From a virus: a DNA stretch of 64,000 nt. The DNA lies in IMG/VR virus record IMGVR_UViG_3300033153_005382, positions 20,862 to 84,861 of that record; one strand, given 5' to 3'. The first letter of the stretch is position 1. Each line of letters starts with the position of its first letter. The position numbers and the translations under genes were made by a program. Shown one piece after another: positions 2,880-58,808 of the stretch. The notes below the pieces were generated by a model. The model saw only the letters and a list, made by a program, of their open reading frames with translations, was not told where the DNA came from and searched no databases.

Positions 2880-3039
2880 TATCCCTCTCCTTTCGTCTTT
2901 TGAACAATTCCCTCATACGTTCCGTTGGTTCTCCATCTTTGGCCAAATACCAATACGACGGCATCAAATCCAAATGCTTCCCGACAACGACATCCGGTGA
3001 CTTTGTCTTACTATTACATCCCGAAAAATACAACCTCAT
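2851..3039 (-). CDS. Small protein resembling the N-terminal segment of DpdA-type transglycosylases
   Basis: This 62-residue ORF starts in an ATGA overlap with the dpdA stop and overlaps csrA by 29 nt. It reads MRLYFSGCNS and then LMPSYWYLAKDGEP. That pattern is what I would expect at the start of phage DpdA-like enzymes (a first beta strand, then a conserved S-Y/W-YL segment), while the upstream DpdA protein begins directly at its FLDSGAH motif and lacks it. I infer a split, order-swapped N-terminal piece; no alignment was run. Confidence 0.6.
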   Translation of the reverse strand: MRLYFSGCNSKTKSPDVVVGKHLDLMPSYWYLAKDGEPTERMRELFKRRKERDNVSVEQTER

Positions 3040-10383: not shown

Positions 10384-10450
10384 CTTCCACCTCTTTCGTT
10401 ACTACTGATTCGTGACAAAATCTGGATGACTTACTCATCCCTTACAAACT

Positions 10451-10456
10451 ATTATA
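10451..10456 (-). promoter_or_regulatory. Possible -10 box (TATAAT) before the winged-helix gene
   Basis: The minus strand reads GGGTTATAATAGT in the 78-bp gap between the helicase stop and the 10383 start. It shares TATAATAG with other putative phage promoters in this window. No good -35 hexamer is visible at 16-18 bp, so it would need an activator, a different sigma factor, or may be chance. Confidence 0.35.
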
Positions 10457-10461
10457 ACCCT

Positions 10462-11886: not shown

Positions 11887-11899
11887 TTCGTCCTTTGCC

Positions 11900-12910
11900 T
11901 CAAAACACCTCCGTGGGACTGACTAGTCCTATTTCGTATCCCAACGCTACTAACGCTGTATCCACGTCAGTCTGCGTGACTGGCTCACCGAAGGCCGACC
12001 AGCCCCTCTCCCCTAACCAATCTTCGACCTGTTCAGCCATACTCTTATTTGTATTACTCCTCCCCTCATCTTCGTCTCGACCTTGCTTGGCTTGTCTGAA
12101 CGCTTCCCAGTTCGTATACAAATCATCGGCCTTTCGTACCCTCGGCACGTATGTCTTTCCGTAATTCTTACCTAACCACTTCAACACCTGACTGATCTCG
12201 GTGGCTGGTACGTTTCTGTCCTTCCGTAAGTTTGACAGCACGATGGTCAGTCGATTCAATGACACTGGTCTCTTTCCATTCCTCGGTGCGACGATGTCTG
12301 CATCATGCTCGATCAGTATCGATCGTAACTCTGCTGCCCTTTGTCTGTCTCCCTCGGCGTTAGCTTTATCTAGTGGGGGAACCGAGGCGGCCGGAGGCCT
12401 GCCTCGCTTTCTTTTTCCTTTATTGTTATTATTTATATTGTTATTAATATGGAATACCGGATTTTCCGGAATTAGTTTACCGGGTTTTACGGAATTAGTA
12501 TCCCCGGATTCTACGGAATTAGAATCTGGGGTTTTACGGAATTGGCCTTCGACATTTTCCTTCTCTTCAAGCAGTATATCTACTAGCTTTTTGTCGTTCA
12601 ACTTGAAGTGTCTCTTCGGTGGCAATCCCTTTCTTTTCGACTTGACGAGTTTCAACTTCGTCAGTTCTCTCAAAACCCTTGTCTGTCTTTCCTGTGTCAA
12701 CTGTATCTCGTCTTCCATCTTTTTGATGGTACAGAAGAACCAACCTTCTTCGTCTGAACCAACTGCCTTCCGATGGTTCAGCAGATACTGCATGACTACT
12801 CCGAGGTCGAGACCTATTGCCTCGATCAGCTTGAACGATACAGGAAACCATCTCCCTGTGAATGACAGATCGGTCAAATCGCGATCGTTGACGGTTCGGG
12901 TGGCACACAT
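11900..12910 (-). CDS. Replication initiator with N-terminal winged helix (lambda O-like organisation)
   Basis: Residues about 10-125 form a winged helix domain (VVMQYLLNHRKAVGSDEEGWFFCTIKKMEDEIQLTQERQTRVLRELTKLKLVKSKRKG pattern). A flexible linker rich in Asn (HINNNINNNNKGKRKRG) follows, and then a C-terminal helical domain that probably recruits the helicase encoded next. The linker DNA holds four iterons and an AT-rich tract, so the origin lies inside the gene, as in lambda O. GGGAG precedes the ATG. Role is inferred from architecture and position. Confidence 0.8.
   Translation of the reverse strand: MCATRTVNDRDLTDLSFTGRWFPVSFKLIEAIGLDLGVVMQYLLNHRKAVGSDEEGWFFCTIKKMEDEIQLTQERQTRVLRELTKLKLVKSKRKGLPPKRHFKLNDKKLVDILLEEKENVEGQFRKTPDSNSVESGDTNSVKPGKLIPENPVFHINNNINNNNKGKRKRGRPPAASVPPLDKANAEGDRQRAAELRSILIEHDADIVAPRNGKRPVSLNRLTIVLSNLRKDRNVPATEISQVLKWLGKNYGKTYVPRVRKADDLYTNWEAFRQAKQGRDEDEGRSNTNKSMAEQVEDWLGERGWSAFGEPVTQTDVDTALVALGYEIGLVSPTEVF
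12417..12545. other. Putative replication origin: four iterons plus AT-rich unwinding element
   Basis: Four direct repeats of the 19-mer CCGGRTTYTACGGAATTAG type lie at 12457-12475, 12480-12498, 12504-12522 and 12527-12545, spaced 23-24 bp apart. Repeat 4 differs at three positions. Directly beside them, 12420-12453 is almost pure A/T. In gene direction the iterons come first and the AT-rich tract second, the order seen in lambda ori within gene O. Confidence 0.75.
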
Positions 12911-12946
12911 ATCAGAGACTCCCTACTTTGTCGATAAGTCCATGAA

Positions 12947-12982
12947 AAACCCGGCCCCTTTTTTGGCACGGGGGCCGGGTTT
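12947..12982 (-). terminator. Strong hairpin terminator or attenuator before the initiator gene
   Basis: A 12-bp stem (AAACCCGGCCCC with GGGGCCGGGTTT) and a 12-nt loop are followed on the minus strand by TTTTTC. It lies 37 nt upstream of the initiator start and downstream of the putative promoter at 13170, so it sits in that transcript's leader. On the plus strand it would be a weaker terminator. Confidence 0.85.
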
Positions 12983-13163
12983 GTTAGCAAGAGCAGAAAG
13001 CAAAGAAAGCAGAGTGCTCTTGATCGTCGATTTACTGAAACTTAATGTGAATGACACTTCCTGTCTCTACTTTTTTTCTTTCTGTTTCATCTTGCTAACG
13101 GAGCCTTCATCGTGTGCCGTCCGATTCGCGTCCAATGCAATAAGCTCTTCTTCTCCTCCTCTC
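12983..13163 (-). promoter_or_regulatory. Structured leader RNA with alternative pairings before the terminator
   Basis: In the minus-strand RNA, GTTAGCAAGA (13090-13099) is exactly complementary to TCTTGCTAAC (12983-12992). AAGAGCA (13015-13021) is complementary to TGCTCTT (12989-12995). The two partners share four bases, so the pairings exclude each other, right beside the terminator. Two tiny ORFs (MKAPLAR and MKQKEKK) overlap by ATGA in the leader. This is the usual layout of an attenuation control region; regulation is inferred. Confidence 0.5.
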
Positions 13164-13169
13164 CGTCCT

Positions 13170-13197
13170 ATTATAGCCCCACACCTCAATGGGTCAA
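13170..13197 (-). promoter_or_regulatory. Sigma-70-like promoter for the initiator-helicase operon
   Basis: The minus strand has TTGACC (13192-13197), a 16-bp spacer and TATAAT (13170-13175) in the context GGGGCTATAATAGGACGG. The start would fall near 13163, giving a leader of about 250 nt before the initiator gene. Confidence 0.7.
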
Positions 13198-13568
13198 TAA
13201 GGCTTTTGCTTCTTCAACCTCATCCTTGCCCTTTGCAAGAGAAACCATTGCTTCTCCTCCTCTGCATTCAGAAACGACGGTGGTTCTTTGGGCAATGACT
13301 TGCCTTCTGGCAACGTTCCTTGTATGCTTTCGGTTTTCATTTCCAACCATTTGATACAAGCACTTACGTTGCCTGATATGGCTGCTTGGTACATAGCTTC
13401 CTCTATGTTGTTCTTCTCGATATCGAGGACTTCTTTGGCCCACTCCGAGTCTTTCCTGAGCTCTAGACGAACTTCCCTTACGTCCATTCCTATGATCTCA
13501 GCAGCTTCTGTCCTTGTTGCTCCTCTTATGAGTTCTTCCGTGAACTGTTCACGTTCTTCTGGCGTCAT
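13194..13568 (-). CDS. HTH protein resembling a small terminase subunit
   Basis: A 124-residue protein with an N-terminal helix-turn-helix (TEELIRGATRTEAAEIIGMDVREVRLELRKD) followed by helices with YQAAISGNVSACIKWLEMK. The A-x-x-G-N-x-x-A-x-x-x-W-L pattern is typical of TerS-like proteins. It lies far from the head genes and no large terminase is in the window, so a regulator with the same fold is an alternative. It overlaps the methyltransferase gene by 4 nt. Confidence 0.6.
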   Translation of the reverse strand: MTPEEREQFTEELIRGATRTEAAEIIGMDVREVRLELRKDSEWAKEVLDIEKNNIEEAMYQAAISGNVSACIKWLEMKTESIQGTLPEGKSLPKEPPSFLNAEEEKQWFLLQRARMRLKKQKPY

Positions 13569-14209
13569 CTTTCTTCCTTTCTATCCACGACTGCTCCCCA
13601 ATAGATCATCCTACCACCCTTGGCTATGTAAAACTTGGTCCTAACGATCCTCAATTCCGCCTCTTCGCAGAACTTTTGAAACCAAGGCAACACGACTTTT
13701 CGCCAGTAGAAGTTCCTCAACTTTCTTCTCTCGACTAATGACAATCCTTTTACTTTCTCTCCCTCGGGTGTTCGGTAGTTTCCGTACCTTGTCAACGGTC
13801 CTAGCTGCCCATCAGTAAAGAACATCACTAATGGATATTCCTTAGTGGCTCCCCTCCAGAATGCATGGAAACTATCGTACGGGTAGGCCTGCGCATCGAA
13901 ATCAGCCACGGAGAAGCCTACACCTTGGTACTTGAAGAACGGCCATATGTCACAGTCGCCTGTCTGTGCGACTGCGTCTGGTAGACGTTCACGGAACACG
14001 TCTGTTTTCTTTTCGTCGATGTCTGCTGCGAATACGTCTCGTTCCTTGTACAGTGCTACAGCCGGATCGCCCTCACCGCAGAACGGGACATACACTGCCC
14101 CTTCTCCTGCCTTGGACAAGAGCATCTTCCGAAGTCCTATCTTTCGGTAAATCTCTGCACTTTGTTTCTTGCCCTTGTCAATCGATATTGTACTTTGTTT
14201 CAGTTTCAT
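13565..14209 (-). CDS. SAM-dependent methyltransferase-like protein
   Basis: The N-terminal half reads GAVYVPFCGEGDPAVALYKERDVFAADIDEKKTDVF, a Rossmann-type SAM motif I followed by an acidic ribose-binding residue in ADID. The rest includes YPLVMFFTDGQLG and a C-terminal RTKFYIAKGGRMIYWGAVV strand pair. Substrate is unknown; nucleic acid is plausible in a replication operon. It overlaps the Gp37/Gp68 gene and the HTH gene by 4 nt each. Confidence 0.65.
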   Translation of the reverse strand: MKLKQSTISIDKGKKQSAEIYRKIGLRKMLLSKAGEGAVYVPFCGEGDPAVALYKERDVFAADIDEKKTDVFRERLPDAVAQTGDCDIWPFFKYQGVGFSVADFDAQAYPYDSFHAFWRGATKEYPLVMFFTDGQLGPLTRYGNYRTPEGEKVKGLSLVERRKLRNFYWRKVVLPWFQKFCEEAELRIVRTKFYIAKGGRMIYWGAVVDRKEER

Positions 14210-14958
14210 TTCACTGTCGGAAACGCCTGGTATCGTTTACCATCTAGCTTGTCCCGCGTATTTGCTCGTCCATGGCCGGAGGCTTGCTTATAGAAAAACG
14301 CAACCTCTGCTTCCCTACATTGTGCCATGACATCTCGTGCCCATTGCGTGTCATCGGGTCTTCCGTCGCTTTCTCCTCCGTAAATCACCCAATCGATTCC
14401 GTCCAACACTCCATTGCTTAAATCCAATGGACCGATTGCAGGTTCGTAACTCACGAACCTACATACAGCGGGCATCTGTCTCAACACATCGATCCGTCCG
14501 ATACACTCCTGGGACTCAACCGTAACGCCCAACCAGACATTCCTCCATGGTCCGTATTTCGTATCGAACCACATGCCATCAGGCATCATCCTGCTCATGT
14601 TCTCCGGTCTCTTCGTTAGCAACTGGAATGTCAGAGCGTCACACTCCCAAATCAAATCCCACATATCTTGTCTCATGTCGTGCAACTCTGGTCGATCTTC
14701 GAATACGTCCATTAGCGACCCAATGAACACAAGCTGTGTCCTACCTTCCTTCTTCGCTTTTCGATTCCACTTCCTAACATTAGCCCATGTCGACTTGGTT
14801 CGCTGTCGTGTTTTGTCGTTGCCCCACAAGTCCAATCCCATTCGGTTCTTGGTTAACGTAACTGCGTAGCAATGCTTACAGCCTGGAGAGATCCTAGTAC
14901 ATCCCATCCATGGATTGAACGTGTTGTCGGTCCAACTGATACCTGTTCCTTCTCCCAT
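14206..14958 (-). CDS. Phage Gp37/Gp68 family (DUF5131) radical-SAM-like protein
   Basis: The start TGISWTDNTFNPWMGCTRISPGCKHCYAV is diagnostic for the Gp37/Gp68 family, with CxxxxxxGCKHCY resembling a radical SAM cluster. Later family blocks are FIGSLMDVFEDRPE, FQLLTKRPENM, NVWLGVTVESQE, RFVSYEPAIGPLDL and DWVIYGGESD. The family is common in actinophages, mycobacteriophages and plasmids, often beside primases. Biochemical function is not established; RNA or DNA base modification has been suggested by the fold. Confidence 0.92.
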   Translation of the reverse strand: MGEGTGISWTDNTFNPWMGCTRISPGCKHCYAVTLTKNRMGLDLWGNDKTRQRTKSTWANVRKWNRKAKKEGRTQLVFIGSLMDVFEDRPELHDMRQDMWDLIWECDALTFQLLTKRPENMSRMMPDGMWFDTKYGPWRNVWLGVTVESQECIGRIDVLRQMPAVCRFVSYEPAIGPLDLSNGVLDGIDWVIYGGESDGRPDDTQWARDVMAQCREAEVAFFYKQASGHGRANTRDKLDGKRYQAFPTVK

Positions 14959-14988
14959 CCTTAATCCTCCTTTGTCCTGAGATCAACA

Positions 14989-15870
14989 CTACTGACTAAG
15001 ATACCTAGCCCTCAACTCTGCAATCTCCTCCTGATCCGCTTCGGCGGGATCATCGCCTGTTTCCAAATCATACACTTCTGTAACTCCAGGAGCTACGAGC
15101 AGTCTAGAGAACAACTTGTCCGCTCTTCTCCTTGCTACTACTGATCGATCGAAACAAACGATCCGCCTCGGATAGGCGGATATTTCCTTCACCTGTGTAG
15201 GGCTAATCTCAAGACCGCTTATCGCTACGGCTCCCGGACCGGTTGCCCATACGTCCAACGGTCCTTCGTGGACAATAATCGTATGTCTTGCTAAATCCGC
15301 CCCATACAATATGTCTTTATGTGACAACACTTCCTGATTCTTAGCGGCCGACAGATACCTCGGTTGCTTGTCGCCGATTGCCCGTGTAGTCCAACTTACT
15401 GTTGTTCCATTGACAATTATCGGTATGAACAACCGCCAGCTATGAGTCTTGGCTTGTCCTATTCCTTGGACATCCCACCGTAACCTAATCTCCTGCGGAT
15501 CAAATCTCCTATTTTTCAGATACCGCAGATGGGCTTTTTCCAGATGACCTACCCCTTTGGGAATTATAACCCGGGATGGCCTTTCGACCTTTTGCTCATA
15601 GGCTAGCCTACCCTTAGTTAGCTGAAACACGATGTTTTTGACCCCTGCCCAGTTATTATGGGTCAACCTCATCAAAGCCTCACCTAACTTATGCTTTCCA
15701 CATCGCCAACACGTACAAAAACCATCCGCTTCGCGGATGCCTAGGTGCCACGCCGAAGAATAACACCATGGACATTGCACACCTACCCAACCGTATCGTA
15801 CATGCCTATGCGATCCTCCCTCCTTGTACTCGATCCTATGTTCGACAAGATATTCCGTCAATGCGCTCAT
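14989..15870 (-). CDS. DNA primase (zinc finger plus TOPRIM)
   Basis: A 293-residue DnaG-like protein. The N terminus holds a zinc ribbon with CPWCYS and CTCWRCGKHK. The TOPRIM domain (about residues 195-285) has IIVHEGPLDVWATG (catalytic Glu and Asp) and RRIVCFDRS. It would make primers for lagging-strand synthesis with the DnaB-like helicase. It is shorter than cellular DnaG and lacks a C-terminal helicase-binding domain, as is common in phages. Confidence 0.85.
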   Translation of the reverse strand: MSALTEYLVEHRIEYKEGGSHRHVRYGWVGVQCPWCYSSAWHLGIREADGFCTCWRCGKHKLGEALMRLTHNNWAGVKNIVFQLTKGRLAYEQKVERPSRVIIPKGVGHLEKAHLRYLKNRRFDPQEIRLRWDVQGIGQAKTHSWRLFIPIIVNGTTVSWTTRAIGDKQPRYLSAAKNQEVLSHKDILYGADLARHTIIVHEGPLDVWATGPGAVAISGLEISPTQVKEISAYPRRIVCFDRSVVARRRADKLFSRLLVAPGVTEVYDLETGDDPAEADQEEIAELRARYLSQ

Positions 15871-15891
15871 CTAGCACCTATTGACTTAAAA

Positions 15892-16091
15892 CAGCCCTGC
15901 CGGGAGTCGAACCCGGAACGATCCTAGCCAGCTAAGCACGGCTCATACGAGCATTCATCGTGACTGGCGCCTTTGTATGTTTTTTTTCAGATCGCGTCTT
16001 GTGTCTCATCGGTCATTTTGTTCTAGCTGGCCTACCGAGAATCTCCAGCTACTACCTTCGCAATGCGTATACCAATTTCGCTACAGAGCTG
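15892..16091 (-). tRNA. Interrupted tRNA-like gene (intact ends, about 120-nt unexplained middle)
   Basis: The 5' end CAGCTCTG (16084-16091) pairs with the 3' end CAGGGCTG (15892-15899) over 8 bp with one G-U. TA at positions 8-9 and a tRNA-Leu-like D arm (GCGAAATTGGTATACGC, within 16064-16083) follow the 5' strand. A perfect T arm, CCGGGTTCGACTCCCGG (15900-15916), directly abuts the 3' acceptor strand. Between the D and T arms lie about 147 nt instead of some 22-40. No clean anticodon stem was found and no CCA is encoded. Confidence 0.5.
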
Positions 16092-16130
16092 CCTTGTGTA
16101 TTCTAGCGGTGGACAGCTTTCTCATGGTGG

Positions 16131-16457
16131 TCATACACTGCCTCGCCTGACCTGGCTAGTAACAGTTGCTTCAACGTTGCCTGTCCTTGTAGGATCAGGA
16201 CAACTCCACATTCCCCTAAGGGGACATTTCTGTTCTACACCGCCTAATACACAAACCTCGATTGCGACGCCGTCGAGGGTGGCCGGATCGTCGAATTCGA
16301 GCCATGCTCGGTTACCTCGAATCGGTTTGCCGTTCGTTGTCATTTCGATGCTAGAACCGGCAAAATACAATCGCTGGCCGAATCCGCACCATTTACTGTC
16401 AAATCCAGCCTCTGCGAGTCACTCAACGAGTTCGTTTTGTAGTTCGATCGTTTCCAT
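16131..16457 (-). pseudogene. Small ORF interrupted by an in-frame UGA at codon 13
   Basis: GGAG lies 6 nt before ATG (16455-16457). The frame reads METIELQNELVE, then TGA (16419-16421), then LAEAGFDSKWCGFGQRLYFAG and on to a normal stop at 16131. Replacing the stop by Trp gives a natural NELVEWLAEAGF segment, so the gene is either broken by one TGG to TGA change or read through (context UGA-C). Other genes here end in TGA, so a general code change is excluded. Function unknown. Confidence 0.6.
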
Positions 16458-16497
16458 TGCTATTCTCCGTGAGTTAGAGTTTCAGTCGTCCAGTCAT

Positions 16498-17025
16498 TCA
16501 CTCACCTACCGTGTCTCGTAATTCCGCGAAGAAGTCGAGCGTGCCGTGCATCTCGACACCGTCATCCTCGGCTGCCTCGTCGTTGGCACGGCTCGCCGCT
16601 GCCACCAGTTCGTCGTCAGTTGTCGCAGCGGTGATGCCGTATCCCTCTCGCGTTTCGTCCTTGCCGAGACATGTAATCAACCAGTCGCTCGCATCGACCT
16701 GCACGCGAGATGCCGCCTCGGTGATCCATTGCTCGACAATATCCTTGTCGTCGTCGAACTCGTCATCACCTACGGTTTGCTCAACCGTGAACCCGGCCTC
16801 GTGCACTGTTCGTCTGGCATCCTCGACGGTGTCGAACGCGCCGCGAGCGTACGCTGACCAATCGTTGGTCGTGCCGAGCCAGCCGGTAATGAGTTCCTCG
16901 TCACTCTGGTTGGTGCGACCTGGAGTGTAGCAAATCTGCATTACGTGCCAGGTGTCGCCGATGATGCTCCCGTCACTGGCTTTGTCATCGGGTCCAACGT
17001 ACTTGCGTTCAATTAGGTAAAACAC
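16498..17025 (-). CDS. Acidic hypothetical protein in GC-richer insert
   Basis: I chose GTG (17023-17025) because AGGAG lies 8 nt upstream; the frame runs further up but without a good start. The 175-residue product starts FYLIERKYVGPDD and has WHVMQICYTPGRTNQSDEELITGWLGTTNDWSAYARGAFDTVEDARRTV, then a strongly acidic C-terminal half. No known domain is recognised. Base composition and codon use (GTC, GAC, GCG) are more GC-rich than in flanking genes, which suggests recent acquisition. Confidence 0.65.
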   Translation of the reverse strand: MFYLIERKYVGPDDKASDGSIIGDTWHVMQICYTPGRTNQSDEELITGWLGTTNDWSAYARGAFDTVEDARRTVHEAGFTVEQTVGDDEFDDDKDIVEQWITEAASRVQVDASDWLITCLGKDETREGYGITAATTDDELVAAASRANDEAAEDDGVEMHGTLDFFAELRDTVGE

Positions 17026-17053
17026 GGTCGTTCTCCTCAGGTTAGACAGTAGG

Positions 17054-17245
17054 TTACAAGACGAAGTCGTCGTAATCGAAGTCGGCGTCGTACACTCTTT
17101 CGATTTCCGCTCGCAGTAGCTTCGCGGTCGTCGGATCAACCAATTCAATGGCGATCAGCGTCGCCTCAACGTGATTTTGCGTCAGAACTCGCCGGTGCCA
17201 TTTTTCCTTTGCAGCAGTGCAGAGAGCGACGCCATCCTCACTCAA
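17054..17245 (-). CDS. Small hypothetical protein (63 aa or shorter)
   Basis: The frame can start at TTG (17245). It codes for KWHRRVLTQNHVEATLIAIELVDPTTAKLLRAEIERVYDADFDYDDFVL, a plausible helical protein with an acidic end. A -10 box lies only 3 nt before the TTG, so the true start may be further in. It shares the GC-rich character of its downstream neighbour. Function unknown. Confidence 0.5.
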   Translation of the reverse strand: MSEDGVALCTAAKEKWHRRVLTQNHVEATLIAIELVDPTTAKLLRAEIERVYDADFDYDDFVL

Positions 17246-17247
17246 CT

Positions 17248-17253
17248 ATTATA
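17248..17253 (-). promoter_or_regulatory. Possible -10 box (TATAAT) at the head of the GC-richer insert
   Basis: The minus strand reads AAGTTTTATAATAGTTGAG. The TATAATAG core matches other putative promoters here, but no -35 hexamer is seen. It stands at the junction between AT-normal sequence and the insert. Confidence 0.35.
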
Positions 17254-17341
17254 AAACTTGCACAAGGTCTTGAGCCTTTTCATACACATCACCTCCTTCC
17301 TGATCTTGAGTCTTTCAGAAACAAACCTGTCTTTCCGTCCT

Positions 17342-45411: not shown

Positions 45412-46161
45412 CTAAGCCGATTGGCTTGACAAACTACTGGAACTCTGACTACTAGACGATTCGGACGACAGGAACGAACTAGCAGAGCTCGTCGAGTAAC
45501 TGCTAGAACTTGTCGATACAGACGATTCAGAGGTACTCTGACTGCTCGAACTACTCAAACTGGAACTGCTCAAACTACTCGACTCACTAGAACTAGAACT
45601 CGATACCTCATCGTCATGTCGAGCCAATATGTAAAGCGAAGCAAGTACGGCAGCCCCGCTTGCCTTCAACGTGATCCGATGGGACGACGCACTTAGATCA
45701 AATCCCGACTCACTTGGAGCGCACTTGACCAATATCCCTTGTCCTGGTAATGCACTTCCATTTGCTACAGTATGGTTCCCTAGTATATTCGTCCCTTCGC
45801 TGGACGCAGCGATTATCTCAAGCCGTCCTGCACTTGTCACAACATTGTCATTCTGTATCCCGATAGCAACGATCTCTTCGTACAGAATTTCCTGTCCTAC
45901 CCCATCGTTACCGGCACCTGCTCCGATGTCAAACCCTTGGAAATCTCGCAAACTGATCGTAACCTGGCCACCGTTCGGTACCGAAATACTCGACACCTCG
46001 AATCCCCTATTGGCCTGATTCGCACTGGCACCTGACGTCAACGTTGGTCGATACTGCATGTCCGGATGACTGACCTTCGTCTCTGAGCCATCCGACAAGG
46101 TATTGACTAGTTCAGCCGTAATCCTTAGATTGATCTTCGGCTGTGATAAGCTTCTTGTCAT
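45412..46161 (-). CDS. Structural protein with Ser-rich C-terminal tail (tail module)
   Basis: Residues 1-185 are a beta-rich domain (MTRSLSQPKINLRITAELVNTLSDGSETKVSHPD, then VTISLRDFQGFDIGAGAG). From about residue 188 to the end the protein is over 75 percent Ser with scattered Glu, Gln, Leu and Thr. A second virion-module protein (51626-52246) has the same kind of tail. Such tails are candidate O-glycosylation sites. Position before the tail tube suggests a tail or decoration role. Confidence 0.65.
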   Translation of the reverse strand: MTRSLSQPKINLRITAELVNTLSDGSETKVSHPDMQYRPTLTSGASANQANRGFEVSSISVPNGGQVTISLRDFQGFDIGAGAGNDGVGQEILYEEIVAIGIQNDNVVTSAGRLEIIAASSEGTNILGNHTVANGSALPGQGILVKCAPSESGFDLSASSHRITLKASGAAVLASLYILARHDDEVSSSSSSESSSLSSSSLSSSSSQSTSESSVSTSSSSYSTSSASSFLSSESSSSQSSSSLSSQSA

Positions 46162-47845: not shown

Positions 47846-49435
47846 CTACGCAGGTGCGGTTGTCGTGATTCCTACGCAAGCGCCTCGTTCTACTTGGCCT
47901 CCATACCTAGCCATGGCAACAATCAACATGCTGTTATTCCGAATCAGCGTATCGCCTTCGGTGGACGTTCTGACAGCAAAGCCCTTACGACGATACATCC
48001 GATACCGCTTCATCAGTGTATAGATGATTTGCTGATTTGTCAGGCTTTCGTTGATCTTGTACGGTCGTTGCATCCAACTGTACGAATCGTAATCCATTCC
48101 ACCGACCCGTCTAGCATCAGCAGTACCGACCGGAATTCCACGGGCCCTACTGTAACTTGTCTCGGTGCCGATGAACACTGCGGAAGACTTAACGGCGGCC
48201 GTGTGTTCATTCTTCGGCACGGAGAATCGTAACGATTCGTAGTTTCCAATCGTCGTAGTCCCACTAAATGCTACTGATGTCGTTCCGGTAGCATTAGTAT
48301 ACCCTTCCGGTTGCGTCGTTCCATTGCCAGTGGCAATGACATCATCGAGATCTTCGAGCAATCGTTCCCCATACTGTTGGGTCATTACTGCTCCGAAGTC
48401 GATTGGTGTATCGCTTAGGAAATCAAGGCCGATACGTACAGCTCCTTCCCAACGATAGATGGTCGTGTCAAACGCAGCGACGAACGAATTCGTATTGAAC
48501 AACGTGATCGCTGAGTCATCGACACCGCCCCAACTTCCAGTCACCGTCTCGATGCTGACTCCTTCGATTCGACGACCCCTGGACAACGGAATCTCGTTGA
48601 CCATCGGATACAGTTCGCCGTTCAGCAATGGCACCTGAATGACTTGCTCATCGAACACAATCGGAGCTGCCTCAAGACCGCCAGACGTGGCATCGTCGAT
48701 CAAAGCCTTGATACCTCGGCCGTTTTCGGAATTGTAGCCCTTTTGACGTCCAACGACGTAATCACGGCTGTTGTCCCATTCCGCCTCCTCGGCTAGATGG
48801 CACAGCAAACTCTTGTCGTGATTATTCATCTGGGCAAACGCAGCATGAGCATTGCCGGCCAGTTTGGGCGTCACCGACATGAGCTGAAACTTGGCCCAGA
48901 CTCCTGAAAGGGCCTTCTCTAGATCGGAAGCCTCGTCCAGGGGCTCACCGAACGCTTTTACTCGTTGCTTTGAATTCTGATGCGGTCGTCCGTGTTTCGT
49001 ACTTTCGGGATACAACAGAGCTGTCTTGGTCGTCGAGTACTGTTCAACAGCAGCTTTGACCCTAGCCTCAACAGTCTCATCATTGCCTTCGACAGTACCA
49101 CCGATCGACGCTATCTTCATGGCCAACCCGGATGACTTGACTTCTTTCACTTCCGTGTCCTCTGACTTCTCATCAGTCTCTTCCTCTTCCTCTTCCTTGG
49201 TCGCAAGTAGATCGATGGCCTTTTCAAGTCCATCGGCAATTCTATCGAATCGCTTGGCAAACTCATTTGCCTCATCCTCATCGTCTTCCTTGCTCAATTC
49301 CGCATGCTTTTCCGCCGTCAACTTGCCTTCCAGCATTGCTGCCACGGCGGCCTTGCGTAGATCGTCATCAGAGTCATTGACATCACAGTCATACTCTTTA
49401 ACGAGCCACGCCCTTAGTGCTTTTGTGATCTTCAT
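47846..49435 (-). CDS. Major capsid protein, HK97 fold
   Basis: The 529-residue protein has an acidic, helical N-terminal delta-like region (1-130, with DDEDEANEFAKRFDRIADGLEKAIDLL) and a C-terminal HK97 body. TSGGLEAAPIVFDEQVIQVPLLNGELYPMVNEIPLSRGRRIEGVSIETVTGSWGG and IYRWEGAVRIGLDFLSDTPIDFGAVMTQQYGERLLEDLDDVIATGNGTTQPEGY are diagnostic. It follows the prohead protease gene. The N-terminal region is probably removed by the protease. Confidence 0.93.
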   Translation of the reverse strand: MKITKALRAWLVKEYDCDVNDSDDDLRKAAVAAMLEGKLTAEKHAELSKEDDEDEANEFAKRFDRIADGLEKAIDLLATKEEEEEETDEKSEDTEVKEVKSSGLAMKIASIGGTVEGNDETVEARVKAAVEQYSTTKTALLYPESTKHGRPHQNSKQRVKAFGEPLDEASDLEKALSGVWAKFQLMSVTPKLAGNAHAAFAQMNNHDKSLLCHLAEEAEWDNSRDYVVGRQKGYNSENGRGIKALIDDATSGGLEAAPIVFDEQVIQVPLLNGELYPMVNEIPLSRGRRIEGVSIETVTGSWGGVDDSAITLFNTNSFVAAFDTTIYRWEGAVRIGLDFLSDTPIDFGAVMTQQYGERLLEDLDDVIATGNGTTQPEGYTNATGTTSVAFSGTTTIGNYESLRFSVPKNEHTAAVKSSAVFIGTETSYSRARGIPVGTADARRVGGMDYDSYSWMQRPYKINESLTNQQIIYTLMKRYRMYRRKGFAVRTSTEGDTLIRNNSMLIVAMARYGGQVERGACVGITTTAPA

Positions 49436-49498: not shown

Positions 49499-51142
49499 TC
49501 ATTTCGTTTTCTGTCTCTTCAACTCCCGATACTGTTCAGCCTTCTTACTGGCTTCCTCTCGCTCGTCGAAGTGCTTCAACACTTTTACTAGTCTTGCTCT
49601 TTCTGCTTTCGTAGAATGTGCTACCCATTCCTCCATGGACAACTCCTCTGACTTCTCCTCAACTCCCTCAACTTCCTTCCCTTCCTCATTGACCATGGTC
49701 GATAACACACCCTTCATGTGATAAATCGACTGTCCGATACACGCCTTGCAATCGATCGGTGGGCTCATCTTGTAAGCCTCTTCGGCGTACCCTACGGCTT
49801 TCTTGAGCCGTCCTTCGTTCGATAACGACAACACCCGTCCTTTCTTTTCGCCGTCTGCTTCAGAAGTTTTTTCCTCCTCTTCTTCCTTTTCAGGTTCTTC
49901 AGCCTTGGATGGCTTCTCCTTCCCAGTCATCTTGTAACCGCACTTCTCACACACGCCGTCCTTGATCTGATCACTACCACACTTTGGACATACAGGAGCT
50001 TCTTTTTCTTCTTCCTTTTTCACTTCCTTGTCGGTACTTCTCTCTCCTTCGTCCCGTCCTTCGCTTCCTTCGTCTCCAGTCCCATCGCTGGCTTCTTTTG
50101 ATGGGCTGGCTTCTCCGCCGGCTTTCTGATCATCTCCTCCGGAATCTCCGCCTCCGAATTGGCTGGCAGTGTCTGTATCGGAATCTCCCTTTTCATTGCT
50201 CTCCTCCAATTCCATCTTTACGGGCACTGTAACATCTCGTCCTTCCCGAATAACTCTTCCTACTTCCTTCATTACACTCGACGTGAGCTTTCCGCTCTCG
50301 ACTAATGACAAAATCACCTCATGCGTATCCGTATCAACGTTGGCTGGAACAGACACAAGTGATTCTTCCATGACCTCACACCGCACAATGTCAAAGCCTC
50401 CCGTCAGCTTTCCTTTCGAGTCTTTCACCTTATCAAACTCACGGGCTTTGAAGCCATGACTGAACCTGCCCATTCCATTGTCCACCATTACGGCAGAATC
50501 ATGACTCGTCTCGTTCATGTCGATGATACATGACCACAGATCGAGTGTCTTCTCATTCTGCAACGCAATTCTGAGCATCTTGCCAATTGGCATGGTATTA
50601 ACGTGCTGAAACAGAAGCAGCATCTTCGGATCGACTTCCATTCCCTCGGTTCGAAGTATATCCCCATCCCGATCCTTCCTTGGTGTAGACAGAGTATGCC
50701 TGAACACCATCAACGTACTCTTCGGCAGCTCCACGCCTTGGGGCAGATCGTTGTACAGATCTGTCAGTTTTTCGTGCACTTCACTATCTTCGTTCGAGTA
50801 CACAAGTGTCTGTGCTGCTTTCCTCAACACATCGTCAAACGATGTCATTCCCTTGGCTGCGACCCCATAACAGATCTCAACTCCGGCTTTATCCAACATC
50901 GTCTGAACGTATCTATCAGCAGTCAGGATTCCTCGATTGAACCGAGTCTGCTTTTCCTGCCGCTGTCGTATAGCTACCAACAGTTCCTCATTAGGATCCA
51001 TTGCTTTCTTCTCCTCTCTCCAGATCGAATGACAAATCGCCACGGCTTGCTTTTCATCCTTGGCGGTGCCTTCGTTCAAAACAAAAGGAATACAACGCTC
51101 AACGAACTGATCCTCGGTCTCGCCTTGCTTTGGTTTAGGCAT
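49499..51142 (-). CDS. HK97-family prohead protease with zinc ribbon and acidic C-terminal extension
   Basis: Residues 130-310 form the S78-type protease: PRKDRDGDILRTEGMEVDPKMLLLFQHVNTMPIGKML (His near residue 189) and GFDIVRCEVMEESLVSVPANVDTD (Ser near residue 262). The C-terminal 200 residues are very acidic and include a zinc ribbon (CPKCGSDQIKDGVCEKCGYK), probably a fused scaffold. The N-terminal DQFVERCIPFVLNEGTAKDEKQAVAICHSIWREEK is a small cap found in phage proteins. Confidence 0.88.
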   Translation of the reverse strand: MPKPKQGETEDQFVERCIPFVLNEGTAKDEKQAVAICHSIWREEKKAMDPNEELLVAIRQRQEKQTRFNRGILTADRYVQTMLDKAGVEICYGVAAKGMTSFDDVLRKAAQTLVYSNEDSEVHEKLTDLYNDLPQGVELPKSTLMVFRHTLSTPRKDRDGDILRTEGMEVDPKMLLLFQHVNTMPIGKMLRIALQNEKTLDLWSCIIDMNETSHDSAVMVDNGMGRFSHGFKAREFDKVKDSKGKLTGGFDIVRCEVMEESLVSVPANVDTDTHEVILSLVESGKLTSSVMKEVGRVIREGRDVTVPVKMELEESNEKGDSDTDTASQFGGGDSGGDDQKAGGEASPSKEASDGTGDEGSEGRDEGERSTDKEVKKEEEKEAPVCPKCGSDQIKDGVCEKCGYKMTGKEKPSKAEEPEKEEEEEKTSEADGEKKGRVLSLSNEGRLKKAVGYAEEAYKMSPPIDCKACIGQSIYHMKGVLSTMVNEEGKEVEGVEEKSEELSMEEWVAHSTKAERARLVKVLKHFDEREEASKKAEQYRELKRQKTK

Positions 51143-51152
51143 TACCGGCCTG

Positions 51153-51626
51153 CTAACTGTTGGCTTCGATTTCCTCTACGACGTCTTCGTGTGCACGAGT
51201 CTTCAACGTCACGTGAAGTCTCTGCAAGAACTTGACATCCTTCTTGTACCCGGCTTTGGATATGTCAATATCGTTCAGCCACCGTACGATATCATGAATA
51301 CTTGGACGTCCGCCCTGGAACCTAGGCGAGTTACCTAGTACCTTTGCCTTGCCTGCATCCAACTTCAGTCGTTTCATGGTCCTGGTAGTCTCCGCCAAAA
51401 GCTGTCCCGCCCTCTGCTGATCAGCATTGACTGCCAATTCCTGTACGGCTCCAAAATTGATCGACACTTTGTAATCCGGATTCTTCATCTGCTTTCTAGC
51501 CTCCGATTCGTTCTGTCTTTCGACAAACGTGACCCTTTCGTTACCTAAAACCAATCCATCGTCTACTTCCTTATTCCTAGCCTGCCTCCTCTGTGACCTC
51601 TCAAACGATTTGACGATTCTGTTCAT
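51153..51626 (-). CDS. Structural-module hypothetical protein (157 aa)
   Basis: The basic helical N terminus MNRIVKSFERSQRRQARNKEVDDGLVLGNERVTFV is followed by VSINFGAVQELAVNADQQRAGQLLAETTRTMKRL. No known domain. It is linked to the Ser-rich protein upstream by a 1-nt overlap and to the protease downstream by a 10-nt gap. Confidence 0.6.
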   Translation of the reverse strand: MNRIVKSFERSQRRQARNKEVDDGLVLGNERVTFVERQNESEARKQMKNPDYKVSINFGAVQELAVNADQQRAGQLLAETTRTMKRLKLDAGKAKVLGNSPRFQGGRPSIHDIVRWLNDIDISKAGYKKDVKFLQRLHVTLKTRAHEDVVEEIEANS

Positions 51627-52246
51627 TAGGTCGACCAGCTACTAGACGATAGACTCGACTCACTAGTCGCGGAAACGCTGCTCTGTGACTGGCTCGAAGC
51701 GCTCGATGGGCTACTGGACGATTCGCTAGAACTAGATTCACTACTAGAGCTAGAACTAGTCGACTGACTCGACTGGCTGCTAGAACTAGTCGACTGACTC
51801 GACTGGCTGCTAGAACTCACACTACTAGAACTAGTCGATTGGCTCGACGAACTTTCGGAGCTAGTCGATACACTACTAGAGCTACTATTGCTTGTCGAAC
51901 TCCAAGAACTGGACGAATGACTCGACGAGCTGGACGATACGAATTCCTTGCTAAGCACACAGAAGTTACTGAATGCTCCAGGAAACACCCTATCACCGGT
52001 ATGGAAATGCAACACTTGTGGCAGGCCTGTCGTTCCATCGACATTGGTGTCGATCAACACGGCCTCATACATTTGATTGACAGGCAATGTCGTAGACACA
52101 GTCTCGGTCGTCCCGCCGATTGCGTCATTCGAATAGGATGCTGCTATTGCTGAATCATCTCCTGCCCTTCTCATCCTTGTGATCGTTAGACTTCTGGACG
52201 ACAAATGGGCTCCGCCGGGTCCCAGATACAACGTGACTCGTGCCAT
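51626..52246 (-). CDS. Structural protein with Ser-rich C-terminal tail (head module)
   Basis: Residues 1-105 form a beta-rich domain (MARVTLYLGPGGAHLSSRSLTITRMRRAGDDSAIAASYSNDAIGG). From residue 105 to 206 nearly all residues are Ser with some Gln, Glu, Thr and single Trp or Asn. The DNA there is a mosaic of short repeats around CTAGAACTAGTCGA. The same tail type is found on the protein at 45412-46161, which suggests a shared post-translational modification. Confidence 0.65.
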   Translation of the reverse strand: MARVTLYLGPGGAHLSSRSLTITRMRRAGDDSAIAASYSNDAIGGTTETVSTTLPVNQMYEAVLIDTNVDGTTGLPQVLHFHTGDRVFPGAFSNFCVLSKEFVSSSSSSHSSSSWSSTSNSSSSSVSTSSESSSSQSTSSSSVSSSSQSSQSTSSSSQSSQSTSSSSSSESSSSESSSSPSSASSQSQSSVSATSESSLSSSSWST

Positions 52247-53445: not shown

Positions 53446-54207
53446 CTACTCCTCCATGGGACCACCGCCAGGATTAGAAACAAACCTATCAGTAGCAGGA
53501 TCATGGTACGGGTTGAACTTCTCGCCTAGTTCGTCTACTTCCTCCCCTAAATTCGACTCTTCCCTTTCGTAATAATCTCGAATAAGCTGTTCGGCTTCGC
53601 TTGCCTGCATCCCGTACTCCATCACTATTGTACACTGACAATTACACCTTTCCTCGGGTGGTAGCCCGAAGTATCCTGGCCATGGAATAAATAAACCTGC
53701 TAACAACCACATTCCATTCTCATCTGCCGGGACTCCGTCTAGTGATGCATGAGAATCCCTTGTCGTAGTTCCTAAAACACTTAGCCACGACGGTCTCATC
53801 GGCACTAACGGTCCCAAATCCTCTATCATCTGATTTATTGAAGCCTTCCTTGCTCCGTTCAACGCATTACCTGCCTCGGTGCGGGCTATGTTCATCGCCC
53901 GTTGTCTTGCGTACTTATCTCCCCCTAAGGACTCTTCCATTTCCTTCGCGATCTTCCTTATCGACCATCCTTCCCCGAGTCCTCTAATCAATGCATTCTC
54001 AGCGTCTCCCTGAGTTGTTTTGGCAATGACATCCCAATACGATTCAACAAATGACTCTGCTAGCTGTTCTGCTATGACCTGCTTCATCCACAACGGTATT
54101 TCAGTCCACAACCGTATCGGAAAGCCTTCCAATCCCTCAAACAACTCTCCAAGAGCATAAACATCCCCTGGATTCTCTATTAGCCATTCTGTTGCTGTTG
54201 TGGGCAT
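53446..54207 (-). CDS. MuF-like minor head protein
   Basis: The diagnostic MuF segment is RQRAMNIARTEAGNALNGARKASINQMIEDLG, followed by RPSWLSVLGTTTRDSHASLDG and PWPGYFGLPPEERCNCQCTIVMEY. MuF proteins sit beside the portal in the capsid. The C terminus ends with the linker FNPYHDPATDRFVSNPGGGP and then stops, whereas the neighbouring gene carries the same linker followed by an enzyme domain; here the cargo appears missing. Confidence 0.88.
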   Translation of the reverse strand: MPTTATEWLIENPGDVYALGELFEGLEGFPIRLWTEIPLWMKQVIAEQLAESFVESYWDVIAKTTQGDAENALIRGLGEGWSIRKIAKEMEESLGGDKYARQRAMNIARTEAGNALNGARKASINQMIEDLGPLVPMRPSWLSVLGTTTRDSHASLDGVPADENGMWLLAGLFIPWPGYFGLPPEERCNCQCTIVMEYGMQASEAEQLIRDYYEREESNLGEEVDELGEKFNPYHDPATDRFVSNPGGGPMEE

Positions 54208-54383: not shown

Positions 54384-55796
54384 TTACCTCCACACACTGA
54401 ACACGGCTGGATCGATATACGATTGCAATGCGACCGCTGGTGTATTGCCTAACACTTCCGACACCTTCTTCCCTACCTCCTTGACAGCTTTCTTATACTC
54501 CTTCTCGTTCTTGGGTCTGGGCATTTGCTTGATCAGATCAACAGCAGCTGTTGTCCCTTTTGCTGTTCTAAAATCCTTCGTCTTGAATTTTCCACCGTCC
54601 TTAGTCTGACTGTACTTACTCAACTTCACTTCGTTTGTATTGAAAATCTTACCCCTTGCTCCGGCAGCCTTCTTCCTCCGAATCAAATCAGCCTTGATCG
54701 TCTTATCGGTCACTTCTACTTTCCTGCTCACTCCTTTCTTGCCTATATACACCAACGTCACCTTGCCAGCAGTTGAAACTCGTACGTGCCTTCCCTCGAT
54801 GGTACTTGCCCCATACGCTTTCATTTCTGCCTTAGTATCGCCCCGACCACCGGGCCTCATCCCGGTATTTATTATAAGTCTCAGACAGCTTGCTTCTTCC
54901 CTTGTTACTGGATTCTTTGCATCCTTGTTGACCTCGGCTTTGATGGATCTTGCTTTCTTTCTCAATTCGTTTGTCTTAGCAAACTTGGCCTTGGCAGCTT
55001 TTTCCCAATGCTGTTTACTGTACACACTCTGCCATCTTCCTTTCGCGTCCCTTCCTTTGACTAACAACTCCGCTTTGGGATTCCTGGCTACAACTACATT
55101 CCTCCAAGCTGGTGGTATGTTCTTCGGTATATGCTTCGGCAACGGGGCTCCGTCAGCCATTGTCAACTTGCCATCCTTGTCCCGTTTCGTCTTACTCATC
55201 CCAGTTCCTACTCCACTGGAACTTCCTCCTCCTCCGAAACCTCCACCTGTGTCTGGTGCCATCATGGGACCACCGCCAGGATTAGAAACAAACCTACCAG
55301 TAGCAGAATCATGGTACGGGTTGAACTTTTCGGTCAGTCCCTGTACTGCTTTGTCTCTTGGATCGACCCCCACACTTACCATCTGAGCTACTGCAGCTTC
55401 CATCATCTTACCAGCTAGCACTGGCAATAGCCTATCCTTCAATCTATCCGTCCACTCGCCTGGAGAAAACGCTAAGGTAGCCCATGCTTTTGCCTCCTCC
55501 TCTATGCTCTTGGTAGCAACGCTACCTTCCTCCCCTTCCTCCCCGTTACCTCGTGCTAGGCCCTTGCTTTCTGATAGATTACTGCCCAATTCCATTAGAC
55601 CCTCGGTAAGGCATGATACTTGTGCCTTGATCTCCCTTTCGACAACTGCTGTCACATCCTTCTCAGTATCCTCAAACTGTTTGACGTGAATGATCCTAGA
55701 CACATCTTTGCGTATCCTATCCTCCATCGTATCGCGCTTGAGCCTAACGGCCTCGATGGCTGCCCGTCGTAGCTCTGTCAGTACTGTGTTGCTCAA
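54384..55796 (-). CDS. Virion-module protein with C-terminal topoisomerase IB-like domain
   Basis: Residues 1-155 are a helical head-module domain. A linker (KFNPYHDSATGRFVSNPGGGP) with Gly-rich tail leads to residues 215-470, which look like a type IB topoisomerase: ASCLRLIINTGMRPGG (Arg), VTLVYIGKKGVSRK (Lys), GGKFKTKDFRTAKGTTAA (Arg) and NTPAVALQSYIDPAVF (catalytic Tyr). Pox-type TopIB nicks and relaxes DNA through that Tyr. Fusion to a capsid-type domain suggests packaging in the virion. Activity is inferred from the order of key residues. Confidence 0.82.
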   Translation of the reverse strand: MSNTVLTELRRAAIEAVRLKRDTMEDRIRKDVSRIIHVKQFEDTEKDVTAVVEREIKAQVSCLTEGLMELGSNLSESKGLARGNGEEGEEGSVATKSIEEEAKAWATLAFSPGEWTDRLKDRLLPVLAGKMMEAAVAQMVSVGVDPRDKAVQGLTEKFNPYHDSATGRFVSNPGGGPMMAPDTGGGFGGGGSSSGVGTGMSKTKRDKDGKLTMADGAPLPKHIPKNIPPAWRNVVVARNPKAELLVKGRDAKGRWQSVYSKQHWEKAAKAKFAKTNELRKKARSIKAEVNKDAKNPVTREEASCLRLIINTGMRPGGRGDTKAEMKAYGASTIEGRHVRVSTAGKVTLVYIGKKGVSRKVEVTDKTIKADLIRRKKAAGARGKIFNTNEVKLSKYSQTKDGGKFKTKDFRTAKGTTAAVDLIKQMPRPKNEKEYKKAVKEVGKKVSEVLGNTPAVALQSYIDPAVFSVWR

Positions 55797-56035
55797 TATT
55801 CAACCCCTTCCCGTAATGGCGTGTCGTCTATAACTTCCTCGACGACTCGTCCTCCGTATATTTCAACAGCTTCCCTGGCCATTGTGATATGCGGTTGCGG
55901 ATCTGCTCCGGATGGGCCATCCGGATCCTTCAAATCATTGAGCGATTTCTCTAACCAATCCTCATCTGAACTCCATTCCAATTCCCCTGCCTTGATTATG
56001 GCTGTAGCTCCTCCTATTTCTACTACTGCATACAT
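55793..56035 (-). CDS. Small hypothetical head-module protein (80 aa)
   Basis: I chose ATG 56035, just after the portal stop. The product MYAVVEIGGATAIIKAGELEWSSDEDWLEKSLNDLKDPDGPSGADPQPHITMAREAVEIYGGRVVEEVIDD shows an alpha-beta pattern. It overlaps the TopIB-like gene by 4 nt. Function unknown. Confidence 0.65.
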   Translation of the reverse strand: MYAVVEIGGATAIIKAGELEWSSDEDWLEKSLNDLKDPDGPSGADPQPHITMAREAVEIYGGRVVEEVIDDTPLREGVEY

Positions 56036-56039
56036 TAAC

Positions 56040-58808
56040 TTAACCTCCGTACGGATCGTGCCCTCTTGCAACATCAAGTACGAACGCAAATGCCGCTGGA
56101 TCCTTCTTTGCAAACATAACCGGATCCTTGACCATGTACTCTAACCCCATAGACAGAATCTCCGTTGCTCCATGACGGTAATACTTGCCCATGTAATTAT
56201 TTATCCATGTGCCCTTCCCTTTAGCTTTGGGGAAATACTTCTCGGAATTGCGATACCTCAACCCCAACGACACTACTCTCTTTCCTCTTGTCTGTTCGGC
56301 CAAAAATCTTCTTGCATTAATCCCGTTTATCGATCTAGCATATTCCAAATGGTGACCCAATTCATGAACCATAGAGGACTTCCCTGATCCCGCCCCTAGA
56401 GACACACCTTTCCCATCCTCATAACAACTTCTACTTGATTTCAAATCCTTTATCTTAACAGATCTTGCGTCTCCTAATGCCTTGTTACTTACAAGACTTT
56501 CAAAATCCTTAAGTCCTTCCTCAACTGCTTTCTTATTCTTGCCTCGATATGAGGCTGTTAATCGTGCCTGTTGATTCTTAGGCAATGCTAGTAGTTTCTT
56601 AGCAGCTTCTCTGCCTTCTTTTTCTCTTTTGTGCATTTTAGCTGCAATTCTCGTTCTTCCTCTCATCAATTGGTCCCATTTCCCTTTCAACGTTTGTACC
56701 TTACGCTTAGATTCAGGAGTAAGCTCTGACAGTTTATCTAGTTCTCCTTTAGCTTTCCTTACCTCCGGGGAACCTACCCACTGTGTTCGTGACAATTCCT
56801 TCCACTTCCCAAAAGCCCTCTCCCTGGCTTTTGGATTCTTGTAATCCCTTTTCGTATTCTCCAACTCACTTGCTAAAGAACTTAGTTCGTTGTTTATCTT
56901 CTCCAATCCCTCGAGGTCTTTGCTTTTTCTCGCGGATATTTCCTTGATCAGTCCCTGCATATCTTCTAACACTTCTTTTCCCCGCTTTGGAACTCCTCCT
57001 GCTGGGCCTGGTCCAACTGGTGGTTTCGGCTTCAGTGGTTTCTTCCCAGGCTTTGGCTTCGGTGGTTTCTTCCAATGGCCTCCACGACCGCTTGGACTTA
57101 CGACGAAATTCCATCCCATACCTCCCCACTCTCCTCCTGTTGGCCTCCCTGCAGGAATCCTAGGCTGTTGTGTCCAATCCTTGACTATGTCCACTACCAT
57201 CTCTGCTATGACCTTGCCACTTACATAATCCATCCTCCGTAACTCAGCTACGGCTTTCTTCAACTCCTCCTCCTCAGACTCTTCCTCCACGGGTGGTTTG
57301 CCGTCGACTGGCTCCGTAGCTTCTTCCGACTTCTCGACTTTGGGACCAGCAATTGTCTTTGCCAGATCAGACGGTATCCCCAACCCCTCAAGCAAGGCCA
57401 TGGCCTGATCATTCTGTATCTTTCCTCCTCCTACTTTTTCCAACAGGGACACAATGCTACCAATCATCCCTTTCTCGATGACTGATTCGTTCCTATCCTC
57501 GTCGGGCCCGTACCCCAACAACGTCCGCAGCTCATTCTGTGATATGTCATTGTTCCGTCGAGCAAACTGCACCATCTGATTCCACTGCTGTACATCCTTA
57601 ACTTCCAATCGCTCCCACCAGACCAACAGATCCTTCTCATCTTCCTCTTCGTTAGCAAGATTCGTCATTAAATTCGACAGCATATCAAGATACGAATTCA
57701 CCCGATCATAGAACTGTCCCTTGATAATGGCTGCCTGTGCATATCCTCCAACTGACACCGTCTCGCCCAATATAAATGGATGAACGCAGAACACCGACAG
57801 AATCGCCTTCTTGACCGACTCCTCGGATTTCTCCCAACCCATCTCGGTGTTCGTCATCGACAAACGTTCTACATTCTCAATCAACCCGTCGATGATAGCT
57901 GGACTTCCGTAATTTGCAATCGATCCCATGGCTTGCTTGATCGCCATATGCACCTGCCGCCGCTGCGATGGACTAAGCCGTTGCCTGATTCCTCCAGGCA
58001 CGTCGGGATGCGGATCCTTTCCTACGGTCACGATGACCGACGGGAATACTCCTTGGTGAAAAAACACCTCCCGGCTTGTCTGAATATGATCATCGATCCT
58101 GATAGTTACTGCCCTAGCATCGGCAGGAGCGAACCCCATTCGAGGATCAGCTGGGTTCGGCAAATGAGCAAATCCTACCTGTGTCCTATCTAACCACTTT
58201 CCATCTTGCTGTGAATCAGGCTTCCCCGGATCAACTACTTTGAATCGACTAAACGGTCCTTGGGTATGATCAGCCTTAATCCAATTCGTCGGCAGGGAAT
58301 AGAACTCCATTTCTCCTTCATCGTTAAAATCCTTGACTACGTAAGCCCAACCAGTCAAACACAGATTCGACAAAAACGAATACGTGAACTGCCACCTTCC
58401 CTGTATTGGATTCGGCTTCTCCAAAGCTATCTTAATCGGATGATCTTCTATGATGTCTACTTCGTCCCCGGAAGCCTTGCTCGACATGAACGATGTCATG
58501 GTCGATTTCGTACTTGAATACGATTTCGGCTTTCCGGTCTTTTTCTTCCTGCCTACTAAAACCTTTTGAGACGCTCCTCGATGGCAAATGGCATTGACTG
58601 CTGAATACAACCAACCGGAAAACAATCCATACCTACTCCGATACCGTTCCTCCTGTTTCCAATCTGTCAACATGCCTGTGATATTCGGTGCAAGTACATC
58701 AGACATGAACCCCGTCTGTCTAGTACTCCTCGCTGCTTTCTCAAATGCAACGATTGATATACTACGACTGTCTTGCAATGCCTTACCGAGGGTCTCAACG
58801 GCTTTCAT
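56040..58808 (-). CDS. Portal protein fused to a C-terminal zinc metallopeptidase-like domain
   Basis: Residues 1-530 are an HK97-type portal (LFSGWLYSAVNAICHRGASQKVLVGRKKK; TGWAYVVKDFNDEGEMEFYSLPTNWIKAD; VFFHQGV). A Pro/Lys/Gly-rich linker lies near 575-625 and a charged helical stretch near 630-780. Residues about 800-922 hold SSMVHELGHHLEYARS (HExxH) and RHGATEILSMGLEYM (possible third ligand Glu), like a gluzincin. At 922 residues it is about twice the normal portal length. The extra domain may process or be delivered with the virion. Confidence 0.88.
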   Translation of the reverse strand: MKAVETLGKALQDSRSISIVAFEKAARSTRQTGFMSDVLAPNITGMLTDWKQEERYRSRYGLFSGWLYSAVNAICHRGASQKVLVGRKKKTGKPKSYSSTKSTMTSFMSSKASGDEVDIIEDHPIKIALEKPNPIQGRWQFTYSFLSNLCLTGWAYVVKDFNDEGEMEFYSLPTNWIKADHTQGPFSRFKVVDPGKPDSQQDGKWLDRTQVGFAHLPNPADPRMGFAPADARAVTIRIDDHIQTSREVFFHQGVFPSVIVTVGKDPHPDVPGGIRQRLSPSQRRQVHMAIKQAMGSIANYGSPAIIDGLIENVERLSMTNTEMGWEKSEESVKKAILSVFCVHPFILGETVSVGGYAQAAIIKGQFYDRVNSYLDMLSNLMTNLANEEEDEKDLLVWWERLEVKDVQQWNQMVQFARRNNDISQNELRTLLGYGPDEDRNESVIEKGMIGSIVSLLEKVGGGKIQNDQAMALLEGLGIPSDLAKTIAGPKVEKSEEATEPVDGKPPVEEESEEEELKKAVAELRRMDYVSGKVIAEMVVDIVKDWTQQPRIPAGRPTGGEWGGMGWNFVVSPSGRGGHWKKPPKPKPGKKPLKPKPPVGPGPAGGVPKRGKEVLEDMQGLIKEISARKSKDLEGLEKINNELSSLASELENTKRDYKNPKARERAFGKWKELSRTQWVGSPEVRKAKGELDKLSELTPESKRKVQTLKGKWDQLMRGRTRIAAKMHKREKEGREAAKKLLALPKNQQARLTASYRGKNKKAVEEGLKDFESLVSNKALGDARSVKIKDLKSSRSCYEDGKGVSLGAGSGKSSMVHELGHHLEYARSINGINARRFLAEQTRGKRVVSLGLRYRNSEKYFPKAKGKGTWINNYMGKYYRHGATEILSMGLEYMVKDPVMFAKKDPAAFAFVLDVARGHDPYGG

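Follow-up and report, generated by a model that had tools for sequence, protein, structure and literature searches.

The question raised by this locus is what a type IB topoisomerase (TopIB) would be doing among the genes for a phage head. The gene concerned lies at 54384-55796 of the window, the 64,000-nucleotide stretch of viral DNA analysed here, on the minus strand, as do all the features of this gene and of the head module described below. It encodes 470 aa from a TTG start at 55796, which is preceded by a Shine-Dalgarno-like stretch, GGAAGGGG, and overlaps the TGA of a small ORF (55793-56035, 80 aa, ATG at 56035) between the portal and TopIB genes, such that the small ORF and the TopIB gene are coupled through the tetranucleotide TTGA.

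The C-terminal part of this ORF, from residue ~200 to residue 470 (54387-55199), is a type IB topoisomerase. Residues 266-456 match the Pfam family Topoisom_I (PF01028) with an E value of 2.6e-18 and 66.7 bits, against a curated cut-off of 23.7, and there is a weak match (2.4e-4) to the N-terminal module of bacterial TopIBs. The top sequence match in the PDB is the Deinococcus radiodurans enzyme (2f4q/3m4a; E 4.8e-21 over residues 214-467), followed by poxvirus TopIB (2h7f; 1.7e-6). The R-K-R-Y order read in the initial annotation corresponds to R314 (54855-54857), K353 (54738-54740), R410 and the predicted nucleophile Y460 (54417-54419), to which K407, forming a TopIB-type K407-x-x-R410 motif (54567-54578), and N451 (54444-54446) can be added; all of these align with active-site positions of the Deinococcus enzyme. 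The fifth position, represented by N451, is likewise N in D. radiodurans TopIB, and H in poxvirus TopIB. In an alignment of 88 domains the catalytic residues are invariant or nearly so: the predicted catalytic R314 and K353 do not vary, the fifth position is N in 85, and the nucleophile is Y in 87, with a gap in the remaining one. An AlphaFold2 model based on the window protein together with relatives retrieved for it reached a pLDDT of ~90 across the TopIB part. The structural comparison with Deinococcus and poxvirus TopIBs that the initial annotation had proposed recovered the TopIB fold, the top ranks in Foldseek being the Deinococcus enzyme (3m4a, E 3.4e-13), poxvirus TopIB (TMt 0.66) and human Top1. 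The domain is in all likelihood catalytically active. The protein matched no PADLOC defence system and no NCBIfam family.

As tyrosine recombinases and telomere resolvases have the superfamily fold in common with TopIBs, an integrase-related enzyme was also considered. The motif sets the window protein apart from integrases, since KxxR replaces the HxxR of recombinases, and the recombinase structures scored at an E value of 0.06 or worse, Cre among them, against 3e-13 for the TopIB fold. PF01028 was also matched by each of the 68 related ORFs described below, and the TopIB N-terminal module by 61 of them. Furthermore, no match to an integrase, TopIA or gyrase B family was found in the 84.9 kb virus record from which the window is taken, which is possibly incomplete. 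This identity was consequently rejected, and we regard it as extremely improbable.

The remainder of the protein consists of an N-terminal domain (residues 1-158; 55323-55796), a putative cargo tag, KFNPYHDSATGRFVSNPGGGP (residues 157-177; 55266-55328), and a Gly-rich linker running to residue ~199, in agreement with the earlier description of such a linker, which adjoins the tag at residues ~172-196. The N-terminal domain, modelled as all-helical with low confidence, had been described as belonging to the head module. No Pfam or PHROG family matches it, and searches with the whole-protein fold returned TopIB-type matches only and none to this domain, so that the description stands on synteny and on a homologue in the related contig L007, where a stand-alone gene directly after a portal-TopIB fusion is 33.7% identical over 163 aa (E 2e-20). 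A partial homologue is present in L027. We therefore regard it as a putative head- or portal-associated domain.

The neighbours are as first described. Upstream lies the portal gene (56040-58808; PF04860, 1.3e-22; phrog_33618, 8.3e-26), and downstream that of the MuF-like minor head protein (53446-54207; PF04233, 2.1e-11); no MuF domain was matched by Pfam in the TopIB ORF itself, MuF being the next gene. The portal carries a C-terminal cargo region of its own, in which a motif scan identified HELGHH, a zincin-like signature, preceded by the linker QQPRIPAGRPTGGEWGG, and KFNPYHDPATDRFVSNPGGGP, the tag in which the MuF-like protein ends, is followed by no cargo. Further along are a putative S78-like prohead protease (49499-51142; phrog_617, 3.5e-10; PF04586 at 0.0047, below the Pfam cut-off), which is a candidate maturation enzyme, and the major capsid protein (47846-49435; PF05065, 3.9e-10). 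Two other proteins of the structural region (51626-52246 and 45412-46161) have long serine-rich C-terminal tails.

The first scan of viral contigs recovered two loci, L001, an independent metagenome contig with a TopIB gene 99% identical to that of the window, and L002. A profile of the TopIB domain extended these to 21 loci, and a second profile detected 146 in a single IMG/VR scan, 80 of which were kept; from these relatives 68 ORFs were selected so as to avoid duplicates. Against 84,980 bacterial and archaeal genomes this second profile yielded just two loci, a count that does not include ordinary bacterial TopIBs because the search patterns are specific to the clade, and one of the two is the same TopIB ORF as in a viral contig (L094 and L038). 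A PHROG of 565 positions, phrog_23460, matches 52 of the 68 family members. A search of an annotated phage collection turned up just two distant TopIB matches and no relative of the L007 portal region, and hence supplied no cultured model phage for this clade. TopIB is not peculiar to the window phage: it belongs to a large phage family, which switches between a state fused to the portal and a separate one.

The fused state is found in 26 of the 68 ORFs and extends across four Pfam portal families (21 with Phage_portal_3, two each with Phage_portal and Phage_portal_2, and one with Portal_Mu). Other domains identified by Pfam on these ORFs are InPase (6), NUDIX (6), DUF2213 (2) and MuF (1), the DUF2213 cases being fusions to head-module proteins. 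Most unfused TopIBs follow a portal gene of the same strand at a distance that is typically 0.4-6 kb, these neighbourhoods being read from portal and terminase calls and Pfam-based matches. For loci in which these calls gave no portal, Pfam identified six Phage_portal, one T4-type portal and five MuF neighbours, along with several capsid and terminase matches. Portal, InPase and TopIB occur together in L002 and L019. In two jumbo genomes, of 485 kb and 281 kb, the portal-TopIB spacing is just 448 bp and 5.2 kb, respectively, and it is unlikely that the proximity in both is due to chance. The structural module of the 281-kb phage (L041) contains a pair of TopIB genes (9848-10807 and 15320-16996), the second with HxxR and D where KxxR and N are usual. 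A 2108-aa protein of L025 (1854-8177) has a TopIB-like domain towards its N-terminus that groups with its counterpart in the 485-kb phage (L023).

The association of TopIB with the structural module is therefore very strong, with relatives fused outright to portal proteins. This bears on the suggestion that the enzyme functions in replication, outside the virion, and sits in a head operon by accident. Free TopIBs are indeed encoded by jumbo phages such as PaBG and Motura (PMC7824862), but 26 TopIBs are fused directly to portals and the linkage recurs from one portal family to another, which leaves this with very little probability.

How the two states relate is best seen in L007, the closest relative, which shares a contig with L026. 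The head module there is syntenic with that of the window (portal 44% and MuF 54-62% identical), and the L007 TopIB, 63% identical to the window's, is fused to the portal; in the window TopIB is instead on the neighbouring protein, and the portal bears a different cargo. The model of the L007 fusion is good for TopIB and poor for the portal (mean pLDDT 56). A second close pair comprises L032, fused, and L038, separate. That such arrangements are chimeras of assembly was rejected, as the same architectures are repeated in independent metagenomes (L001; L008/L009; L038/L094). In a quick tree, with weak support on many inner branches, 67 phage TopIBs cluster together (SH-aLRT 96), separately from six plasmid-borne bacterial TopIBs, and the TopIBs of the window and L026 are sisters (support 91). 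Parsimony places 16 changes between the fused and unfused states on this tree, and no fewer than four when strongly supported branches alone are used. Within the group, pairs unsaturated at silent sites gave dN/dS values of 0.06-0.15, and the phage TopIBs are evolving under strong purifying selection. An inactive structural remnant was rejected on the basis of this low dN/dS and the conserved active site.

The tag of the window protein recurs within its genome: KFNPYHD(S/P)AT(G/D)RFVSNPGGGP is found between the N-terminal domain and the Gly-rich linker of the TopIB protein, and a second time at the extreme C-terminus of MuF. Several linker types precede TopIB in the family, most being of the form (D/E)xHPR...GKF..GG, with KHLxxQHxQxxHxH in L007 and L027, NPxHDxxTGRF in the window and L042, and RDxxGRWT in others; among the patterns tried, none was present in about a quarter of the ORFs. 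Within a contig, the kind of linker tends to be repeated in proteins other than the TopIB, with two copies in each of L027 and L042, and four extra copies in L007 on proteins with GNAT, ADP-ribosyltransferase and kinase-like domains. Contigs in which the linker kind could be compared agree in 17 cases and disagree in one (Fisher p 0.0007 for HPR against other, with patterns picked after looking and related contigs counted as independent). A tblastn search of the 23-aa tag peptides against annotated phages found almost nothing, which is a weak negative since such searches are insensitive for short peptides. In L007, the MuF gene (11874-14267) has an intein-like insert (PF14890 match) and its product a C-terminal kinase-like domain behind a KHLPGQHDQ tag; the adjacent 1015-aa protein (14264-17311) combines GNAT and ADP-ribosyltransferase domains with two copies of KHLPGxHDQ.

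As the tag tracks the genome rather than the cargo, a trans-acting partner is suggested, which may be a maturation protease or a docking site. That the tag is itself a site for docking, or for a maturation cleavage freeing the enzyme for ejection, can be proposed only tentatively. A processing step would be needed for delivery into the cell, because a portal-fused enzyme stays in the particle unless released.

The reading we favour, as the more probable on the present comparisons, is of a competent TopIB held at the portal vertex and acting on phage DNA during ejection or early infection. Its parts differ in strength. Incorporation of TopIB into virions is likely: the enzyme would be built into the head through the head-associated N-terminal domain in the window phage, and in relatives through direct fusion to the portal C-terminus or as the product of a gene just downstream of the portal. 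The C-termini of tailed-phage portals point into the capsid interior, and a fused TopIB would therefore sit in the head around the DNA exit. It is probable, then, that the virions of many phages contain an enzyme able to relax DNA. Type IB topoisomerases require neither ATP nor metal, which would suit an enzyme stored in a particle. The chances are about even that it acts on the phage DNA during ejection or early infection. It would then relax the DNA leaving the head and entering the cell, one strand being nicked through a transient 3'-phosphotyrosine at Y460, allowing the DNA to swivel before being resealed, without ATP or metal. The need for relaxation is not obvious, because a linear genome, during ejection, has a free end about which it could in principle swivel.

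The same placement could serve packaging instead. A TopIB working only in the infected cell, where it would relieve torsion or seal concatemer nicks at the portal during packaging and then be inert in the full head, accords with a gene in the late head module and with up to 12 portal-fused copies where DNA is pumped. We consider this rather unlikely, as the slot is also taken by effector-type domains (zincin-like, ADP-ribosyltransferase, GNAT, NUDIX and InPase), and such interchangeability suggests a deliverable cargo. The exchange with effectors might also be read as indicating that TopIB is one of them, altering the supercoiling of the host chromosome or defeating a topology-sensing defence once injected. 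TopIB does hold the slot of polyvalent and MuF effector domains, and phage polyvalent proteins have been proposed as early effectors (PMC5512222). However, TopIB itself is not known to be toxic, and portal fusion puts it on the phage DNA; this role accordingly seems improbable. Returning to the favoured reading of a TopIB acting on phage DNA, a bolder form of it can be put forward: in many tailed phages, up to a dozen active TopIB domains at the portal vertex would act as a DNA swivel in the packaging/ejection channel, being a modular cargo exchanged among unrelated portals behind a genome-specific tag that is cut by a phage protease or recognised by a head protein. This is offered as a speculative possibility.

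Each component of this arrangement has known counterparts. The TopIBs of D. radiodurans and poxviruses have the fold, domain order and active site in common with the window enzyme, but those of the phage family are joined to head proteins and form a clade separate from the sampled bacterial TopIBs. A precedent for a virion-packaged TopIB is provided by the vaccinia TopIB, H6R, which is named as one of the known virion enzymes in a study in which it was itself undetected (PMC1540416). The polyvalent proteins of Iyer et al. (2017, PMC5512222) are multidomain, tied to portal and MuF proteins and thought to be packaged, and include InPase-portal fusions; the TopIB family is alike in consisting of multidomain, effector-bearing proteins linked to the portal/terminase packaging module. 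The domains described in their main text do not include TopIB, topoisomerase appearing in the reference list alone. MuF polymorphic toxins (Jamet et al. 2017, PMC5576092) are encoded just downstream of the portal, like the TopIB genes, and have variable C-terminal domains, but the window protein lacks an N-terminal MuF domain and no toxin domain is claimed for it; topoisomerases are unmentioned in that paper. The free TopIBs of the jumbo phages PaBG, Motura, RSL1 and Lu11 (PMC7824862) are likewise phage-encoded, but are described as DNA-handling enzymes, with no head domain or portal fusion reported, and phrog_23460, matched by most of the present family, is of unknown function in PHROG. The initial annotation had taken a virion-borne enzyme of this kind to be undescribed, and the main texts of the open-licence literature searched contain no description of TopIB as a virion-borne enzyme or as a phage head or portal domain. 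Hence TopIB is known and portal/MuF cargo is known; it is their combination that was not found described.

It has long been asked whether torsion in the DNA matters while a phage packages or ejects its genome. The occurrence of a topoisomerase on the portals of many phages suggests an affirmative answer, at any rate in their case. With this family, a DNA-topology enzyme joins those thought to be carried in phage heads, and the tag could serve to flag further head cargo where phages are uncharacterised.

Elsewhere in the window, an ORF at 3036-4025, for which there was no Pfam match, has an LDSGAHT motif that we take to resemble phage DpdA-type proteins. Three minus-strand genes encode GTP cyclohydrolase I (5963-6874), a QueE-like radical SAM protein (7163-7840) and a QueD-like protein (9202-9693), and together make up a 7-deazaguanine pathway, which possibly serves the modification of DNA or tRNA.
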